From Sistotremastrum niveocremeum HHB9708 (taxonomy: Eukaryota; Basidiomycota; Agaricomycetes; Sistotremastrales; Sistotremastraceae): DNA of 34,372 bases. Shown here piece by piece: positions 8,123 through 31,152 of this stretch (the first letter of the stretch is position 1; every line of letters starts with the position of its first letter). Below the pieces are notes generated by a model that made no database searches, had not been told where the DNA came from, and saw only the letters and a program-made list of their open reading frames with translations. The stretch spans positions 1 through 34,372 of the forward strand of contig KV419478.1 of the NCBI GenBank assembly GCA_001630475.1, given 5' to 3'. The translations under genes were made by a program, and so were the position numbers.

Positions 8123-9130
8123 TCAATGGACTGTGTACCGTCTGCCCTTCCGTTTTCGCCTTGAACAATATTTACATTTACATTCCTCCTTGGCATTCTC
8201 GCCACCATTCATAATCCAAAACGCATGCTCATAAAATTCCTCCGGACTCCTAAAACACTTCACTTTCCTCGATCCATAGAGATAACAATCCCTCCGCGGA
8301 CGATGTCGATCGCCTGTGCGATGCTCGTAGAGCCGATAGTGGTCGGGCCAGGATTTCATATGGTATGCGACGAGATCGGCATTGGGGAGGTGGAGGAAGG
8401 ATTTGGCGATGTGGTGGCCTACTTTGTGGAGCCAGTGGAGGGATGTTTTGTGTGTTAGCGGAAGGAGGGTTACGTAGTTAATTGGATCGTTGGATGAATT
8501 TGGATTCGTTGTGGGTGGTGGAGGGGAAGTCGGATAAATGGGGGTGGTTGATGCGTTAGTGATTCCGTCCGATGTTCCATCAGGAAACGATATCTCAAGA
8601 CCTTGCAAGTACTTTGAATTATCTGACTGCTCTTCTCGAGGAGAAGGAGGCTCAGGTCCGAATAGTGAATCGTCATCAGCTTCTGAGGCTGAATCACCGG
8701 AATCGGGTGGAGGTGTAGCCCCTCCTTCAACCGCTGGCTGTTCAGCTGAGGGAATTGGAGGGACCGAGACGGCTGTCGGCTTTCGGTGAACGACGATATG
8801 ACGATGACGCGTCAGGATGAGGCCACCTGGCCGACCTTGTCCATGGTTTGTCTGATGCGAGTGGGGTCGTTCGGAGACTGCTAGTGCAGATCGTCGATTC
8901 CAGTTCTTTGGATCATAGAGTGATTCGACGTCCTGCTGTGGTATTGTCCTCTGAATTATTGGAGCTTTCGGAGGATCACCAGGTGTTGGATCAACGAGCC
9001 CAGGCTGACTGGATCCATCGAAATTTGAGTTTGATATCGAAATCGATGGATTCATCTTCCTGGGCCCTAAGTCCTGATCGCTTTTCCGGGAAGACGACGG
9101 AACAGCAGGAAGGCTACTTTCGACGTTCAT
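8123..9130 (-). CDS. Clr2-like transcription-silencing domain protein (short form)
   Basis: A single uninterrupted frame of 335 residues. Residues 1 to about 205 are Ser/Pro/Asp-rich and probably disordered (for example SASEADDDSLFGPEPPSPRE). From about 215 a folded domain begins: THKTSLHWLHKVGHHIAKSF, WPDHYRLYEHRTGDRHRPRR, DCYLYGSRKVKCFRSPEEFY, EHAFWIMNGG and a terminal Cys cluster CKCKYCSRRKRKGRR. The LYG...FRSPxEFxxHxxW pattern and CxCxxC end match what I know of the N-terminal domain of fission-yeast Clr2, part of the SHREC heterochromatin complex. Many basidiomycete proteins keep only this domain, so the lack of the longer Clr2 C-terminus is not necessarily a truncation. No in-frame ATG precedes 9130 before a stop, but a further 5' exon cannot be excluded. 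A nuclear silencing role is inferred from the domain alone. Confidence 0.7.
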   Translation of the reverse strand: MNVESSLPAVPSSSRKSDQDLGPRKMNPSISISNSNFDGSSQPGLVDPTPGDPPKAPIIQRTIPQQDVESLYDPKNWNRRSALAVSERPHSHQTNHGQGRPGGLILTRHRHIVVHRKPTAVSVPPIPSAEQPAVEGGATPPPDSGDSASEADDDSLFGPEPPSPREEQSDNSKYLQGLEISFPDGTSDGITNASTTPIYPTSPPPPTTNPNSSNDPINYVTLLPLTHKTSLHWLHKVGHHIAKSFLHLPNADLVAYHMKSWPDHYRLYEHRTGDRHRPRRDCYLYGSRKVKCFRSPEEFYEHAFWIMNGGENAKEECKCKYCSRRKRKGRRYTVH

Positions 9131-11465
9131 CTGATGATGTCGCGAAAGTGAAGGACACGATCGTATTGGAGAAGAAACAATATTTCAACTCGTAATACAA
9201 TAGATTCGAATGATATTCGTATTCGGTCCGGATGTACGGAAGTTAGACTACGAACTGGAAACAAGATATGTAAGGAGTCTGAAGACTCGATAAGAGGAAA
9301 AGAATACTATTTATACGGGTGGGATGTGGGTAATAGCTGGTGAGGAGTGGGGGTTTGAATGAAGATTTGTGGTGGGGAACGAGGGCTTATATAGCGTATC
9401 GATCGATAACATGGTTTGAGTCATCGAGGGAATGAATGACACAGCCCTGCACAGCCCCCGCTTCCTAAAAGAGAGATGCCGTGACCATGCCGTCGGAGTA
9501 ACAGTTGATGCGGGGACTCGGAAGCAAATTGTTCCCAAATCGGGTGTCGGCAAACCCTAGCGCGAACCCATTGAGACTAGACTAAGTCGGGGTCGTTAGC
9601 GGTGCGTGGAGCTCGATAGGCTCGATAGCGACGGGCCGGCTCTGCCGAGGGTCTAACGTAGTAATAGCCGTTTATTTCGGTAGCTATTATGTAATAAAGA
9701 TAATCCAATTGCCATATTTGAGCGCGGCGTATCAAAAAACCCTGAAATGGGGCTCGGATGCTTAGCTCAGCGTGTCAGCCGGCAAATCCCGCTCCCGGCC
9801 TCACATTTCGCAGCGAGTGCCTCTCAACAAAGCCTGCCGCGTCCGGCGCTGTTCATAAATATCTAGATTATTGTCGTTACCTCGAGTAAGAATTTATGAA
9901 ATTTTGAACTTAAAATAAGCCTTTTTTCGGTGCCAAGAAGTGTGAAAGCGAAGACAAACTGGCTTGTGAGCCAATGAATATTGTAGATTACATTTGAATG
10001 TTTGGTCAGGCGTTTGAGAGCTTAGTCTATCGATTTGAATATCTTTTGTAGTGTATATGTGACGTCTTGATGATCCAAGAGCGTTCAAACATGCCGGACG
10101 GAAGAAAACTCACAACAACAAAAGAAAATTGGTTGTTGATGATTTCTGCAGAGTGATGGTGCCTGGTGAGCTGTTAGGGCAATTTTGTGCTACATACCAG
10201 CGTTTAACTCTCCATACGCAAGACGGACAGCTCCTGTCAACGCAGTGGTGGAATATACTCTGCCGGCGAAGCCGGCCGCAAAAATGACACCTTTTCCATG
10301 AAACCCAGGCATTCTGTGTTCGTAAATATTTCTATGACATTTGTTTCGACTGTTCGTGATGTTCATCAGTGCATATTGATGCCCTGCAGCAGTGTAACCC
10401 GGCGAAGCTGGGCCCAAAAAAAAAAGACACATTTTGCGGAATTTCAAGCCAAAATGAACACCAGAGCTCATTCATAGCGCTGGAAATTTGACTTCTCAGC
10501 TCATATCAACGCCTAAATATCTTTTCCGGCTCAGGATTGAATATTTTAATGTGTTTTTGGTTTCAAAGAGAGCAATTTATTTCTGAATAGAGCTGAAGTT
10601 CAAAAAGATTTGACTGTGATGAGTCGCTAGATAAAATGGTTCCGAGCATGTGTAAGAAGAATCACTGTAATCGGTCAAGAAATGGCTGAGCTATTGAATT
10701 TACAATGTTGAGGCAATAATTTCGCGTGCTCGGATTAAACACGGTAAGTCCGCTATCGAGCTCGCTTGTTGTCAGCATCAAATAATATATATATTCAGTT
10801 ACTATATATGGACCGTGGGCTCTTCCCGCTTTCGGCGGCAGGGTCCTCCAAACACCGCTATCGAGCCCTAAGTCGTTGGAGAGAGATGGGGAAGTCCTGG
10901 GTACCCCTTTCGATGAATAGTGTGCTCTTCCAGCCTATCCGGCAATAGAATCGATATTTTTCTGTCTTTTCTGTCCTCTGTTCATCGCTTTTGTTTGGTA
11001 TTGTCATCAGCCTCGTGTCATTTTACGTGTTGCTTTATGTGTCTCGGCTGCAACTCTGCGCAGCTCTCTGCGCCTCATACTCGTGTCGAAGCCTATCCGT
11101 TCCTGGCATGACCCTCGTCCCAACAACCTACCGGTTCGATTGAACCTGTATACTCGCTCCTTAATTTGGGGGCCATTCTAGTACACTCATTGCTATTGAT
11201 TATTCATTGATGCCAACGTCAGTCAATTCGATAAGTATAATAATGAACATTACTTCGGTGTTTATGAAGCTTTATCGTCCTGCTTCATTAACGTTACAAT
11301 GCGACAGAAACTGATAGCAAGGTCCGACATTCAGGCTGTCGAGATAAGAGGATACAGACCAGAATGATGAGATGGCTGGTATGCCTCCCTTGGTTTCATC
11401 GCGGTAGATTTCGACACCTTCTGAGGGAGGAGTTTCCGAGGCGATGGGACAGGAGGGCCCACGAA
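9131..11465. other. Gene-free region with an AT-rich island (about 9.85-10.8 kb)
   Basis: No coding region supported. The part near 9131 should hold the promoter of the Clr2-like gene. From about 9850 to 10800 the sequence becomes visibly AT-rich with runs of T and A and an alternating TATATATA stretch near 10785, unlike the flanks. It includes two related GC-rich stem motifs (about 10263 and 10399) followed by CAAAAA and GACAC-TTTT. This may be a degraded insertion, but I found no terminal repeats or transposase-like frame. Confidence 0.5.
10263..10436. repeat. Direct repeat of a hairpin-plus-A-run motif
   Basis: About 35 bp beginning CCGGCGAAGC at 10263 recurs with changes at 10399. Both copies have CCGGCGAAG, then GG, then a CAAAAA run (longer in the second copy), then GACAC and TTTT. 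The first copy is a perfect short palindrome, GCCGGC-GAA-GCCGGC. The function is unknown; it may be part of a degraded mobile element. Confidence 0.6.
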
Positions 11466-22357: not shown

Positions 22358-23747
22358 ATGCTCGAAGCGCGTCTCTCTCAAGCTGCTCTTCTCAAGAAAC
22401 TGCTAGACTGTCAGTATTCACCTCCTCCGACCCCATTTCGCGTCCTTAGAGCCGCCATCACGCTTGATGTCTGGCTCTCTCTTCGACGACTCAGCTGACC
22501 TCTATTCTTTCAGCGATCAAAGAGCTCGTCACTGATGCCAATTTCGAGTGTAATGAAGAAGGAATCAACCTCCAGGCCATGGATAACTCCCATGTCGCCC
22601 TCGTCGCCGTAAAACTCGACGCAGACGGCTTCGCCAAATACCGATGCGACCGTGCCATGCCTCTCGGCGTCAACCTCACTTCCCTCACCAAAGTCCTGAA
22701 ATGCGCCAAAGACGACGATCGAGTCACTTTGAAAGCTAGGGACAACGCGGATGTTCTCAATCTACTCTACGAAGCCTTCGTCGGAGACCGCGTCGCCGAA
22801 TACGAGATGAAGCTCATGGATATCGATGCGGATCAGCTGGGCATCCCTGAGACTGACTACGATGTCCAAGTGGCTATGTCCAGTACCGAGTTTGCGCGTA
22901 TCTGTCGTGATCTCACCAATCTCGGCGAGTCGGTCAAGATCGAAGTCAACAAGGAGGGCGTCCGATTCACCAGCGAAGGCGATTCCGCCAACGGCAGTGT
23001 ATTGCTTATCCAGACCGCTGAGTCGGAAGCTGCGTATAAGGGCGTTCTGGACAAGAAGAAGAAGAAGGAAGAGGGCGAGTCTTCTGGGGTGAAGAAAGAG
23101 GAAGGTGCTGAGGATGAGGACGAGACAATGGCTGATGGAGAGAAAGAAGTGGAGGAGGAGGATGAAGATGAAGACGCACCGAAGTCGGCGAAGAAAGGAA
23201 AGGGCAAGCGCATCAGCAAAAAGCCTGCCGACGACGACGACGACGATGACGTAATCGAGATCAAAGACGAAGAAGACGCTGAGAAGGAGAAGGAAAAGGA
23301 GGACGACGCAGAACATCAGGAAGAAGAGGAAGATGATGCTGAAGAAGAAGATACTTCGTCGAAGAAACGCAAGAAGAAGGCCACTGCTAAGAACGGCGGT
23401 CCTTCGAAACGGGCGAAAAAGGTGTGTCTGCCGTCTCTGCTCGTCTGAGTTCGCCTCTAAACGTTCGACTAGGACAAGCAAATCGACGAAGCTCCTCCTG
23501 GTGTCTACATCGAGATGCAGCAAGCCGTCCAGTTGACCTTCTCCTTAAAATACCTCGTCAACTTCGCGAAGTCCTCCGCTTTATCCAACTACGTTACGCT
23601 CTCCATGAGTAACGAGGTTCCCCTTCTCGTGCGTCTTAGCCTTCGAATCGCAAGCCACCTATACTCACATCTATTCTACAGGTCTCCTACAACTTTGGTT
23701 CCGGGAGTATCTCATATTATCTGGCACCTAAAATTGGTGACGAATAA
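22358..23747 (+). CDS. PCNA: PCNA, DNA sliding clamp, with a long charged insertion
   Basis: Four exons: 22358-22409, 22514-23421, 23473-23628 and 23682-23747, giving 393 residues against about 260 in most eukaryotes. The clamp is clear from the start MLEARLSQAALLKKLLDS through CDRAMPLGVNLTSLTKVLKC, the interdomain connector LMDIDADQLGIPE, EFARICRDLTNLGESVKIEV and the C-terminus SISYYLAPKIGDE. Residue numbering matches human up to about 185, and the modification site Lys164 is kept (VNKEG). Between the strand ending SVLLIQTAESEAAYK and the strand GVYIEMQQAVQLTFSLKYL there is an insertion of about 125 residues (codons about 198-320), made of Lys runs and Asp/Glu runs. It ends exactly at intron 2. 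Known role: trimeric ring holding DNA polymerase delta, ligase and repair factors on DNA in the nucleus. The insertion is discussed in the findings. Confidence 0.95.
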
Positions 23748-25443: not shown

Positions 25444-26909
25444 ATGAAGTCTGTCAGTTTCCTCCTCTCCCTTGCCCTTGTTCCGTCATACGTTCTCGGA
25501 GCCACTCATTTTATCACGGTCGGAGGGACGAACAGCGATGGATCTCCGAAGCTAATGTTCGACCCGGCCAATGTCTTTGCAGACATCGGCGATGAACTTC
25601 GCTTCACGTTCAATGTCAAGAATCATTCGCATGTGATCTTTTACGCCATTCATTAAACGTTCTCACTTTTGCCTATAGTGTAACTCAATCATCGTTCTCC
25701 GAGCCCTGCGCCCCTCTCACCAACTTGTATGGGACGCACATCGGATTCGACTCAGGATTCATGCCTGTGACTTCCGGATCAAGCAACCCGCCTACGTTCT
25801 CCGTCATCGTCAACGACACGAAGCCCATCTGGGGATACTGCCGTCAGACCGCTTCGCCGAAAACCCATTGTCAGCAAGACATGGTTTTCGCGGTCAACGC
25901 GCCTCAGGATCCTTCTCCGAACACTTTTCCGGCATTCCAAAAGCTCGCCGCCGCCTCGACAAGCCAGGACACCACGAGCGCATCACCTTCGCAGACTTCA
26001 TCGGAATCGAGTTCTTCCACCTTCACCTCGGCTGCAGCAACCTCCACGGTTACGGATACCGGAGTCACACACTTTGTGTCAGTTGGTGGCGTCAATTCCG
26101 ACGGTACTCCCAAACTGATGTTCGATCCTAACAACATCGTTGCGCAACCCGGCGACAAGGTCATGTTCCAATTGTAAGTTTCACTTCCTGCTCAACGATT
26201 TGGAGATCTGACGCTCAGTTTATCTAGTAACGTGAAGAACCATACTGCGACCCAGTCCGCATTCCAAGAACCCTGCGCTCCCCTATCCGATCAATTCGGT
26301 CAACACATCGGATTTGACTCGGGTTTCATGCCATTCAATCCCAATGTGACGTCTGTCATGCCCACGTTCACTATTCGTGTTAACGATACGAAGCCAATTT
26401 GGGGCTATTGTCGCCAGGTCGCATCTCCCAAGACTCACTGCGAATCCGGAATGGTGTTCGCTATCAACGCTCCTTCCGATCCTGCTCCCAACACGTTCAC
26501 AGCTTATCAGAAGCTGGCCTTAGCCTCTACTATCCAGGATAACACGGCGATCCCCCTATCGCTCCTTAACGTCACAACTACAGCGCTCTGGGCTTCTTCG
26601 TCTACTCCGGCGAATAAGAACTTCGCCGTACTCGGTTCGTCATCGGATGGCTCGGATGAAGAAGGTGGGCTTACGAATGTCCTTCATCTTCTTTCCGCGC
26701 TGCTCGGGCTTGTAGGATTCCTCGTGGCTTTCGTAGTCGTCGCAGCCGCCGTGGGGATCTTCCTCCTTATCAAGACGCGGAAATCGAGGTCTCGGAAGGG
26801 GTCGAGAATGGTGGACGCATCATACCGACCAGTTGCGCTTCCTAAGAGCAAGATGAACGAGGATGGCACGCACGACTATGATGCTCCTCTGTATGCAGAC
26901 GGAGCTTGA
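25444..26909 (+). CDS. Membrane-anchored protein with two tandem cupredoxin domains
   Basis: Three exons by homology between the two internal repeats: 25444-25628, 25679-26173 and 26228-26909, giving 453 residues. A signal peptide (SVSFLLSLALVPSYVLG) precedes domain 1, which starts ATHFITVGGTNSDGSPKLMF. A Ser/Thr-rich linker leads to domain 2, which starts VTHFVSVGGVNSDGTPKLMF. Each domain keeps a plausible type-1 copper set: His in NVKNH, Cys in WGYCRQ, His in PKTHC and Met in the DMVFA/GMVFA strand. After domain 2 come an acidic stalk (SSDGSDEEGG), one membrane helix (LVGFLVAFVVVAAAVGIFLL), a basic stop-transfer (KTRKSRSRKGSR) and a short cytosolic tail. So this is a type I surface protein rather than a GPI protein. 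The first intron appears to use a GC donor (25629-25678); no GT donor gives the correct phase. Role is unknown; copper binding at the cell surface is inferred. Confidence 0.85.
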
Positions 26910-27229: not shown

Positions 27230-28863
27230 ATGACTCTTGACATCCAGAGCGTTCGTTCGCAATTTCCTGGCCTAAAGGACGGCTTCATCTTTGGAGACAA
27301 TGCGGGCGGTTCTCAAGTGCGTCTTATCTCGAGCTCTACGCTAGTGGTCGAATCTGATTTTAATTCTCTGTGTGAACAGGTCGTTGAAGATGTGATCGCA
27401 CGGATCTCTGATTACCTGTCCACGTCCAACGTTCAACTCGGTATATCCATTTTCCATCTGAGGCTGTAAAGTCGAATCTCAATTGCGATTCATCGTTAGG
27501 TGCTCAATACCCTGTATCCAAACTCTCTACGGCACGTGTCGATCTGGGAGCTACCCACACTGCAGCTCTCGTGAACGCGTCGCCTACTGAGATCATATTC
27601 GGACCTTCGTCAACTGCTTTGGTGATCAGCATTAGTCGCGCTATCGACAAAGATATCCTAGATGGAGAGGAAATCATTATTACCGGGGAACATGAATGTG
27701 CGTCGCATCTTCACTCTGAAGTCACCCCTAACCTCATTTCGACTTCGTCCAGCTAACGTCGGTCCGTGGAAGAAGCTGGTAGCCGCTAGAAAGAACATCG
27801 GAATGAAGATTTGGCCGCACACTCCTATCAGCGACTCATCTTCCAATCCCTATGCAGTAGCCCTTCAGATTGATGCCCTCCTTCCGCTTATTACTTCGAA
27901 GACGAGGCTGATAGCTTTTCCCGCTGCGTCGAACCTGTTAGGCGCAGACGGTCACGTCAAAGAAGTCATCGCTAAAGCTCGAGAAGTTGCGAAAGAGAGA
28001 GGTGCACGGAAGCTTGAGTTTATCGTTGATTGCGTTGCGTATACTCCTCATCGCTTGATCAATGTGAAAGATTGGGATGTGGACTATGCTTTCTTTTCGT
28101 ACTACAAGGTCAGACTGATTCTAATCACAAATATCATTATCTCATTCTCCTTCAGCTATATGGGCCTCACGTTGCTACTATGTACGTGAGGCAAGCTGCG
28201 CTTCAGGGATCGTTATCGTCGCTGGCCCATCACTTTCTTCCCGTCGCCGGCAAAGCGTACATGCTTCAACCTGGAGGCCCCGGCTACGAATCGGTCTACG
28301 CTATCACTGGCGTCCTCCCATATCTTCTTTCGCTATCCGACTCCAAACCTTCGATTGCATTCGACGAGGCTACAGCGACCATTACCAATACTTCCGAGAT
28401 CACCAGTGCATTGGTCGAGGCATATCAGAAGATCGCAAAGCATGAGACTGAAGTTCTCGTTACGCCGTTGATCAAGTATTTGAGAAGTAAATATGAGCAG
28501 GGTGTTCGGATCGTTGGGGATGATGCGTTTCCTGTTAATCCTGGTCGATTCCCTACTATCTCGTTCGTCGTTGTCGGAACGAAAGAACCGGCGGGAGATA
28601 AGATCGTCAAGTATCTCGATGCGACTGAGAAGGTTCGTTCCGTGTCCTTTTTCATCCATTTGCGCTACGGAAGTTAACAGGCGAGACAGATCGGTATTCG
28701 CAATGGTCATATGTATGCCTACACCCTTGTCGAAAGTCTGAAGCCTGCGATCGATCTCGACGATGGAGTGGTTCGGGTCAGCTTTATCCATTACAACACT
28801 GCTGAGGAAGTTGAGATTTTCATCGAAGAGTTGGATCGTGCTATCGACGGGGCTGTATCGTAA
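27230..28863 (+). CDS. Class V aminotransferase, cysteine desulfurase-like PLP enzyme
   Basis: Six exons: 27230-27316, 27380-27440, 27500-27697, 27753-28108, 28156-28632 and 28681-28863, giving 453 residues. The start is set by MTLDIQSVRSQFPGL, the usual N-terminus of this group, followed by FIFGDNAGGSQ. PLP-fold landmarks occur in order: NASPTEIIFGPSSTALVISI, the EHESNVGPW segment, VDCVAYTPHR (Asp that pairs with the cofactor ring nitrogen) and DYAFFSYYK-LYGPHVATMY. The Lys in the last of these, at the exon 4/5 junction, should form the Schiff base. HHFLPVAGKAYMLQPGGPGY, a C-terminal FPTISFVVVGTK and IGIRNGHMYAYTL finish the small domain. It resembles the cysteine desulfurase-like subgroup of class V aminotransferases. 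No mitochondrial targeting sequence is evident, so it is not the NFS1 housekeeping enzyme. Substrate is unknown, and desulfurase activity is not proven by sequence. Confidence 0.88.
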
Positions 28864-29308: not shown

Positions 29309-31152
29309 TCATGCGATTTTAGTCGTCTATGGCCATATGGTCAGCAGATGATCGTGGTACGGATGTAGAGGCGTACCTTAGCGTATAATGACTCGACGAC
29401 ATCTTCGACTTGCGAGATCATTTTAATGGCGGCGCTATACGTTCCCTATGTGGATAGAGTCAGTAAATACCGGATAAACTGGTGGAGGAGCGAAGTAAAG
29501 GGGCTCCAAGAATGACGTCGTATTCGACTCCAGCATGCAGGAAGACGGAGACGACAACGTAGTGACATCTGATCAAATTTTCGGAAGATGTAAAGAATAG
29601 AATGGATATGTGGACGAAGATTGACGATGGAGAATAAATGAAACGAAGGAAGACTTACGTGCTCAGCCTGCTCATCATACAACACCAAGCATCCTCTGCC
29701 TTGATCGAGAACTCCATGCAACACTTTGTCGAGAATCATTTGGCTCAATCTAGTCGATATCAGTAAGGGGTCAGAGTCGCGATGAAGAGATCTCACTTGA
29801 GCTCGACTGCTTGTCGTTCCTGACCGACGACTTTGGCGACGTATTCGACTTCGACCACCGAGTATGGTTCGACGATTCGGAGGAGATTTTGTTCGAGGAG
29901 TGTGTCGTAGAGAGCGGCGAGATGAGAGCGAATGGTTTCGTCCGATGACAACTCTACGAATGAATGATCAACAACGATGCAGTGACAGAGCGGATTCAGT
30001 TACCATCTTTGTACACTTTGAGCGCCTTCTCGAAGTCGGCGAGGTTGCGTTTCTGGTGAGCACGAGCGACAGCCCGCATTGACTCGACGTCTTTCACTTG
30101 TGAGAATTTCGTCGCGAGTTTTACGGATAAGAGGGCGGTGACGTCTTCGGGCTGAGACGTCGAGGTCAGTAGAGGGCCAGGAGAGCGGAACGAGGGTGTA
30201 GGCGCACCAAATTCAACATGATTTTACACAGCAACATGTACTTCAACGCCTCCAGTGCCTTTCCCTCGGCTTCTGCTCCCTGATTACTCAGATTCTCGAA
30301 CGCCTCAAAGAAGTACGAGTATGCCGTTGTATAATCTTTGTCTTCTGCATGGAGGATGCCGCTCTGGAGATCGAGTTGGCACTGGAGATGTGGAGGGCAG
30401 TATATGGAATTGGCGGCGGTACGAGAAGAGGTCAGCGAAGCCTTCGACTTCGGGAAGTTGCCGATGGCACGATATACGCGCGATTCGAGGAGGTGGAGTT
30501 CAGTGAGAACGAGCTTATCGTCTAGACGACGGAGCTCGGCGAGGAGGGAGTCGATGAGAGAGAGGGCGGCTTTGTGGGATTGCGTTGATAAGTAGATGGA
30601 GGCGAGGCGTAGCTGGAGGGATTGCTTCAGGAAAATGCGTTTCTCTGACGCCGCCCACTCGATGTTGTCTTTTAAGACGGAGATTTGAATGGCAGTCGAT
30701 GAGGGAATGGGGTTGAAGTAGTCGAGTAAGGTTCGAACTAGTAGCTCCAGGTCAGAGGATGAATAAGCAAGATTCGTTAAGAAACATACTAAGTTTAGCA
30801 GTCTTAGCTTTCGCCGTCGAGGACATGAACGCTCGTGATTTGAATATCACTTGAGCAATCCCTTCAGCATTCCTAGTTTTCTTGTCAGTATAGACCGCTC
30901 AAAGAATTCCGACGAACGTACTTCTGATCGCGGTATAGCTCCCCCAGTCTCAGTAAAGCTTCTTCCTGAATCTCTAAACCCTCCTTCAGCTGAGCCTCCG
31001 TTTGATTTGAGCTAACGGCTGAACAGCAAGTCAGCCAGAATCTACGCGATAGCGTGTCAGGACTTACGCGCAGCAAGAATCTGATTGTACAGGGCTTCCG
31101 CAGCTGCCACATCCTTTGCGGACTTGGCCTGTTGAAGCAGCTCTGACGACAT
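29309..31152 (-). CDS. RPN6: 26S proteasome lid subunit RPN6 (PSMD11)
   Basis: Nine exons on the minus strand: 31152-31068, 31018-30922, 30872-30790, 30737-30208, 30151-30004, 29953-29797, 29749-29659, 29445-29377 and 29326-29309, giving 425 residues (human 422). The N-terminal half is an alpha-solenoid of TPR-like helices: EGLEIQEEALLRLGELYRDQ, AKTAKLIRTLLDYFNPIP, ELHLLESRVYRAIGNFPKSK, ANSIYCPPHLQCQLDLQSGI, then YSYFFEAFENLS. The C-terminal PCI domain has LEALKYMLLCKIMLNL, LRIVEPYSVVEVEYVAKVVG, LKLSQMILDKVLHGVLDQGR and a final helix MISQVEDVVESLYAK. All are close to the family. Rpn6 clamps lid and base to the 20S core of the proteasome. The seventh intron (29446-29658, 213 nt) is unusually long, and the last exon codes only five residues plus the stop. 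It is divergent from RPN7. Confidence 0.95.

Follow-up and report, generated by a model that had tools for sequence, protein, structure and literature searches.

A PCNA gene of agaricomycete type with a long charged arm in its back loop, a likely further case of a known basidiomycete feature

Introduction

What might a sliding clamp as conserved as PCNA be doing with a charged arm of about 140 residues beside Lys164? The question is raised by a gene in the 34,372-nucleotide stretch of DNA that we analysed at its full length (the window), in which a first-pass annotation had singled out a Lys/Asp/Glu-rich insertion in the D2-E2 loop. Because PCNA is so highly conserved, such an arm would amount to a natural experiment on the traffic that the back face of the clamp can tolerate. 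Below we consider whether the insertion belongs to a genuine PCNA, whether it has known relatives, and what it may contribute to the clamp.

Results

Gene model and identity

Our splice model of the gene has four exons on the forward strand and encodes a protein of 393 amino acids. Exon 1 (22358..22409; donor GTCAGT), placed by translation and the splice model, encodes MLEARLSQAALLKKLLD plus one further nucleotide, and is followed by an intron of 104 nt (22410..22513, GT...CAG). Exon 2 (22514..23421) contains the remainder of domain 1, the first half of domain 2 and, at its 3' end, the charged block. Intron 2 (23422..23472; 51 nt, GTGTGT...CTAG) adjoins the block on its 3' side and has three in-frame stops. 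Exon 3 (23473..23628) opens with DKQIDEAPP and continues with strand GVYIEM and most of what remains of domain 2; after intron 3 (23629..23681; 53 nt, donor GTGCGT), exon 4 (23682..23747) ends in YYLAPKIGDE and a stop codon at 23745-23747. The block and its flanking strands had been described as lying in one continuous frame. This holds as far as 23421, but strand GVYIEM is encoded in exon 3, and since intron 2 separates the block from strand E2 the description needs to be qualified. An antisense ORF of 260 aa (22762-23544, reverse strand) was rejected as a gene and attributed to the purine-rich coding strand, of which it is a by-product.

Exon 2 matched the Pfam families PCNA_N (5.8e-42) and PCNA_C (profile positions 1-64, 3e-19), and the PCNA_C match resumed in exon 3 (profile positions 62-110, 6.1e-15). 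PCNA domains are thus found on both sides of the block, in agreement with the proposal that it occupies the back loop between intact strands. By phmmer, exon 2 matched 94 PDB sequences, and all 60 of the matches listed are named PCNA. Human numbering was said to hold up to Lys164 and, indeed, this lysine is residue 164 of the predicted protein. G178 is also kept, as are M40, H44 and I128, which we take to be members of the front-face PIP pocket. Together with a single PCNA_N match in the organism's own genome (34.7 Mb, 111 contigs), the retention of these residues bears out the view that the gene is not a degenerate copy. Apparently, then, this is the ordinary, single-copy and functional PCNA of an agaricomycete-type fungus. 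DUF6533, a family that is expanded in agaricomycetes, has 40 matches in the same genome, which fits such a host.

Extent and composition of the arm

The D2-E2 loop of canonical PCNA has roughly 8-12 residues. Sequence matches to canonical chains (PDB 1plq, 1axc and 7o1e) run through strand D2 and include all five of the residues named above, but those chains are about 258-261 aa long and have no arm. In the window protein, the Lys/Asp/Glu-rich core lies at 23053..23421 within exon 2, exactly where it had been placed. It had been put at about 125 residues and forms the dense part of the insertion. The stretch that has no counterpart in a short-loop PCNA is larger: the expanded loop extends over 23020..23499 on the forward strand and, once intron 2 is removed, comprises 143 aa (residues 187-329) between strand bD2 (SVLLIQT) and strand bE2 (GVYIEM). 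As a baseline we used a eukaryotic-type short-loop PCNA of 256 aa (described below), which has about 9 residues at the D2-E2 position, giving an extra length of about 134 residues.

The loop contains 33 Glu, 30 Lys and 23 Asp, such that 62% of it is D/E/K/R, with a net charge of -23. When the best 60-residue stretch was taken from every six-frame stop-to-stop ORF of at least 60 aa (unspliced only), the most charged stretch in the window was found in the arm (0.73); the runner-up (0.52) is read from the same DNA in an overlapping frame, and no stretch elsewhere in the window exceeded 0.50. The charges are also strongly segregated. The variance of net charge per residue (NCPR, 10-residue blobs) was 0.194 as against a shuffle mean of 0.055, a value reached by 0 of 3000 shuffles, and the net charge per 13 residues along the arm runs 0, +2, -8, -9, +6, -5, -4, -8, -3, +5, +1. 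Such a composition suggests that the arm is probably disordered; an AlphaFold prediction of exon 2 alone and without alignment (mean pLDDT 41.6, pTM 0.20) was uninformative on this point. Compared with its own genome (13 best candidates scored), the charged block matched only itself, and an origin as a copy of another gene's segment was rejected accordingly. Pfam matches to BUD22 and CDC27 fell below the cut-off and were discarded as compositional.

Known relatives

The PCNA of Coprinus cinereus is said to carry a 107-aa D2-E2 insertion, inside one exon and with purine-rich codons, and reportedly comes in two forms, CoPCNA-alpha and CoPCNA-beta, of which one is a truncated isoform. The loop in the window is longer, at 143 aa in all. 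A further case is provided by Cryptococcus neoformans PCNA (Q5K7Y2), for which the accessible text of a 2022 review (PMC9225081) describes an insertion of more than 80 residues in the back loop, at yeast positions 183-195, as well as Thr in place of Lys at position 168; the novelty implied in the first-pass annotation therefore finds no support. The two proteins, which we matched by description, share the site of the insertion and the replacement of K168 (by Thr there, by Arg here), but differ in length, with more than 80 residues in the former as against a 143-aa loop in the latter. Among PDB entries, the PCNA chains 5h0t, 5hac, 6j0j and 7wp3 have 289-302 aa, some 30-45 above 258 aa (a difference that includes tags), and they align with the window protein to about 17 residues past strand D2. 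Chain length and match together suggest that these proteins may have a longer loop here too, although the extension is much shorter than the window arm. Since an insertion at the same place has been published for C. neoformans and, reportedly, for Coprinus, the novelty of the present one is low. We consider it very likely that the gene encodes PCNA and that its arm belongs to this known kind of basidiomycete feature; by its position, the arm would be another example, to which the sequence adds some functional clues.

None of the viral, genome-contig or plasmid collections scanned yielded a basidiomycete PCNA. Exon 2 of the window gene had no match among viral contigs; query A1 gave one locus there, with queries A4 and A2 leading to the same contig, and found nothing among genome contigs. 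Plasmids gave no match. The short-loop baseline used above (IMGVR_UViG_3300010980_000172 from IMG/VR, 1-2847) is the only relative available with its whole coding sequence as DNA. It encodes a complete eukaryotic-type PCNA, with an intron at 2266-2369 (the GTATGT option, one of three that keep the frame). The contig is filed as viral, its other ORFs look phage- or bacteria-like by eye, and it is probably chimeric or misfiled. In a full-text literature search that covered few subscription journals, we found no role for a back-loop insertion, only a statement of its existence in a review and a citation, and the accessible part of PMC7255605 yielded nothing on insertions in kinetoplastid PCNA.

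Residues flanking the arm

Yeast PCNA binds Rad5 and Rad18 through two back-face lysines, K168 and K196, according to the available portion of PMC13050448. The counterpart of K168 in the window protein is R168, which precedes the arm. That of K196 is presumably Y332, an assignment made through human and yeast numbering as we take it to be, so that these two residues flank the arm on either side. The short-loop PCNA from IMG/VR keeps K168 and lacks K196, and human PCNA likewise has no Lys at 196. The change at position 196 is therefore not specific to arm-bearing clamps. Of the two changes, loss of K168 alone appears to accompany the arm, in two insertion-bearing cases (the window PCNA and that of C. 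neoformans).

From the accessible text of the papers concerned, SUMO attached to PCNA at K164 points towards the back face (PMC6116012), yeast Rad18 reads K164-SUMO through a SUMO-interacting motif (SIM; PMC3526273), and a backside loop is mentioned as a partner site (PMC4634812). Given the orientation of K164-SUMO and the way in which Rad18 reads it, a clamp that carried a SIM of its own would differ in a meaningful way.

Motifs within the arm

We compared 18 patterns with 20000 shuffles of the loop; the motifs reported here were picked post hoc, after inspection of the sequence. A SIM consists of a hydrophobic core with acidic flanks, as described in the accessible part of PMC4030836. VIEIKDEE (23251..23274, forward strand; residues 264-271) has a V-I-x-I core of this description, flanked by seven Asp on one side and KDEED on the other. 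The VIEI core is the only one in the arm and overlaps IKDE, a match to the psi-K-x-E SUMO-acceptor consensus. The shuffle P was 0.025 for the SIM-like core and 0.002 for the fused SIM and acceptor form, both post hoc, and SIM-like cores may occur by chance in acidic disordered stretches. We did not rely on the P of 0.0001 obtained with the acid-flanked SIM pattern, since its three matches overlap and all belong to a single site. VKKEE (23089..23103, forward strand; residues 210-214) also fits the acceptor consensus. Strict [VIL]KxE occurred twice in the loop as against a shuffle mean of 0.44 (P 0.064) and the loose form of psi-K-x-E gave P 0.32; psi-K-x-E alone is thus not significant.

Basic K[KR]x[KR] clusters were more frequent over the whole loop than in shuffles (7 versus a mean of 1.46, P 0.0003, post hoc). 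The basic C-terminal part of the block (23362..23421, forward strand), KKRKKKATAKNGGPSKRAKK, is NLS-like. CK2-type sites were fewer than expected by chance (1 versus a mean of 4.3). Eleven of the 18 patterns had no match in the loop, namely PIP, APIM, AT-hook, KEN, SQ/TQ, S/TP, D-box, the inverted SUMO site, the reverse-order SIM, the strict bipartite NLS and E[DE]KKK.

Discussion

A possible role for the arm

These features suggest a model whereby the PCNA ring would assemble as usual, with three disordered arms, each of about 140 residues, hanging from its back face next to K164 and the PIP pocket on the front face unobstructed. The arm might then offer back-face transactions an additional site for docking and modification, supplying basic patches for nuclear targeting or DNA contact together with a SUMO-interacting and SUMO-acceptor module, adjacent to the surface that in yeast PCNA engages Rad18, Rad5 and K164-SUMO. 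We put this forward as the likeliest mechanism, tentatively and on the strength of sequence features. A bolder version would hold that the basidiomycete arm is a SUMO reader and acceptor in cis which took over the back-face surface of yeast Rad5 and Rad18, such that the clamps of mushrooms and related fungi would regulate their own modification instead of leaving its reading to partners alone, Srs2 and Rad18 among them; we regard this as a long shot. With K168 lost in two arm-bearing clamps and a SIM-like core in the arm, mushrooms that are amenable to genetics would allow a direct test for a role in damage tolerance.

A serious rival, and one that we think quite possible if short of probable, is that the arm grew in a near-neutral manner, a tolerant back loop having accumulated purine-rich triplets through slippage during replication and retained them as harmless. 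Short arrays of AAG, CGA, GAGAAG and AGGAAGAAG inside the block are consistent with such a history. So is the use of Lys codons, with an AAG:AAA ratio of 21:8 in the loop versus 6:10 in the rest of the gene, and so is the variation in extra length between species (more than 80 residues as described for C. neoformans, reportedly about 107 in Coprinus, and about 134 here). However, codons for the acidic residues are mixed (Glu, 16 GAA and 15 GAG; Asp, 15 GAC and 8 GAT), which argues that most of the arm is not fresh microsatellite. The strong charge segregation and the lone hydrophobic SIM-like island also hint, weakly, at constraint at the level of amino acids.

Alternatively, the arm could act on chromatin in the manner of a histone chaperone, its alternating acidic and basic patches binding histones or DNA behind the fork independently of SUMO. 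The succession of charge blocks described above would suit such an activity, and the weak, sub-threshold resemblance to BUD22 and CDC27 points in the same direction; but resemblances of this sort are typical of any acidic and basic low-complexity stretch, and AT-hook matches in the loop number zero. On balance we find a chromatin role rather unlikely. The first-pass annotation had likewise raised binding to DNA or chromatin factors, as well as tuning of clamp loading, as conceivable functions.

Retention of the block

Block-less transcripts or proteins might exist beside the full form, as is said of CoPCNA-alpha and CoPCNA-beta. Two in-frame direct repeats of 10 bases bound the block, CAAGAAGAAG at 23052 and 23370 (318 nt or 106 codons apart) and AAGAAGAAGG at 23059 and 23371 (312 nt or 104 codons apart), and would allow a truncation that keeps the frame. 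However, the longer, 11-base repeat (23055 and 23341) is 286 nt apart and out of frame, neither of the 12-mer truncation sites that Coprinus is said to have occurs exactly in 23040-23500 of the forward strand, and short repeats may produce artefacts through reverse-transcriptase jumping. Splicing fares no better: none of the eight GT sites in 22980-23129 fits GTNNGT, as opposed to all three of the model's own introns, and frame-keeping pairs of donors in this interval with acceptors in 23300-23519 would define introns of 207-522 nt, compared with 51-104 nt in the gene. As none of these pairs has a donor resembling those of the gene itself, splicing-out of the block is disfavoured and was set aside. 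The title of the Coprinus PCNA paper includes 'Alternative truncation' (Hamada et al. 2002, Eur J Biochem 269:164, doi 10.1046/j.0014-2956.2002.02634.x), a phrase in line with two isoforms; for the present gene we judge them decidedly unlikely.

An assembly error, against which the first-pass annotation had cautioned, or an unspliced intron misread as coding, might be suspected in a low-complexity stretch that adjoins an intron, but is scarcely credible, given that the frame is open through the whole block, that there is no long exact repeat, that a good intron lies just 3' of the block, and that an insertion of like kind is in print for another basidiomycete (accessible text of PMC9225081). 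Indeed, exact triplet runs in the block reach 18 bases at most and its four TRF arrays are short (20-34 bases) and imperfect, which makes collapse or expansion during assembly unlikely.

Pathway components and gene neighbourhood

In the organism's own genome, the MIZ SUMO-ligase domain has one match. A Rad18-like locus (C1:514392-515512) is made up of four pieces among 11 matches, none of the 11 being over the cut-off, and a SUMO-like gene was recognised by eye in L035. HIRAN, a Rad5-type domain usually carried by Rad5-type helicases, was not found in this genome, in which introns may hide a match. Two tandem arrays of ubiquitin-like matches (C2:300618-301754 and C2:1120799-1122031) are probably polyubiquitin genes; one match in the former has an internal stop.

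The neighbourhood of the PCNA gene is an ordinary fungal gene context. By Pfam, the window contains genes for a Clr2_transil silencing-factor domain protein (8126-9184, reverse strand), a class-V aminotransferase (27662-28186, forward strand) and an RPN6_N proteasome subunit (30169-30846, reverse strand). Two adjacent forward-strand ORFs (25596-26177 and 26178-26909) share the motif order EPCAPL...GFDSGFMP...NDTKPIWGYCRQ...SPKTHC, indicating a tandem duplication or a repeated domain, and have no Pfam match at E 0.01. Near the left end of the window, 324-409 is an exact 32-base tandem repeat of 2.7 copies.
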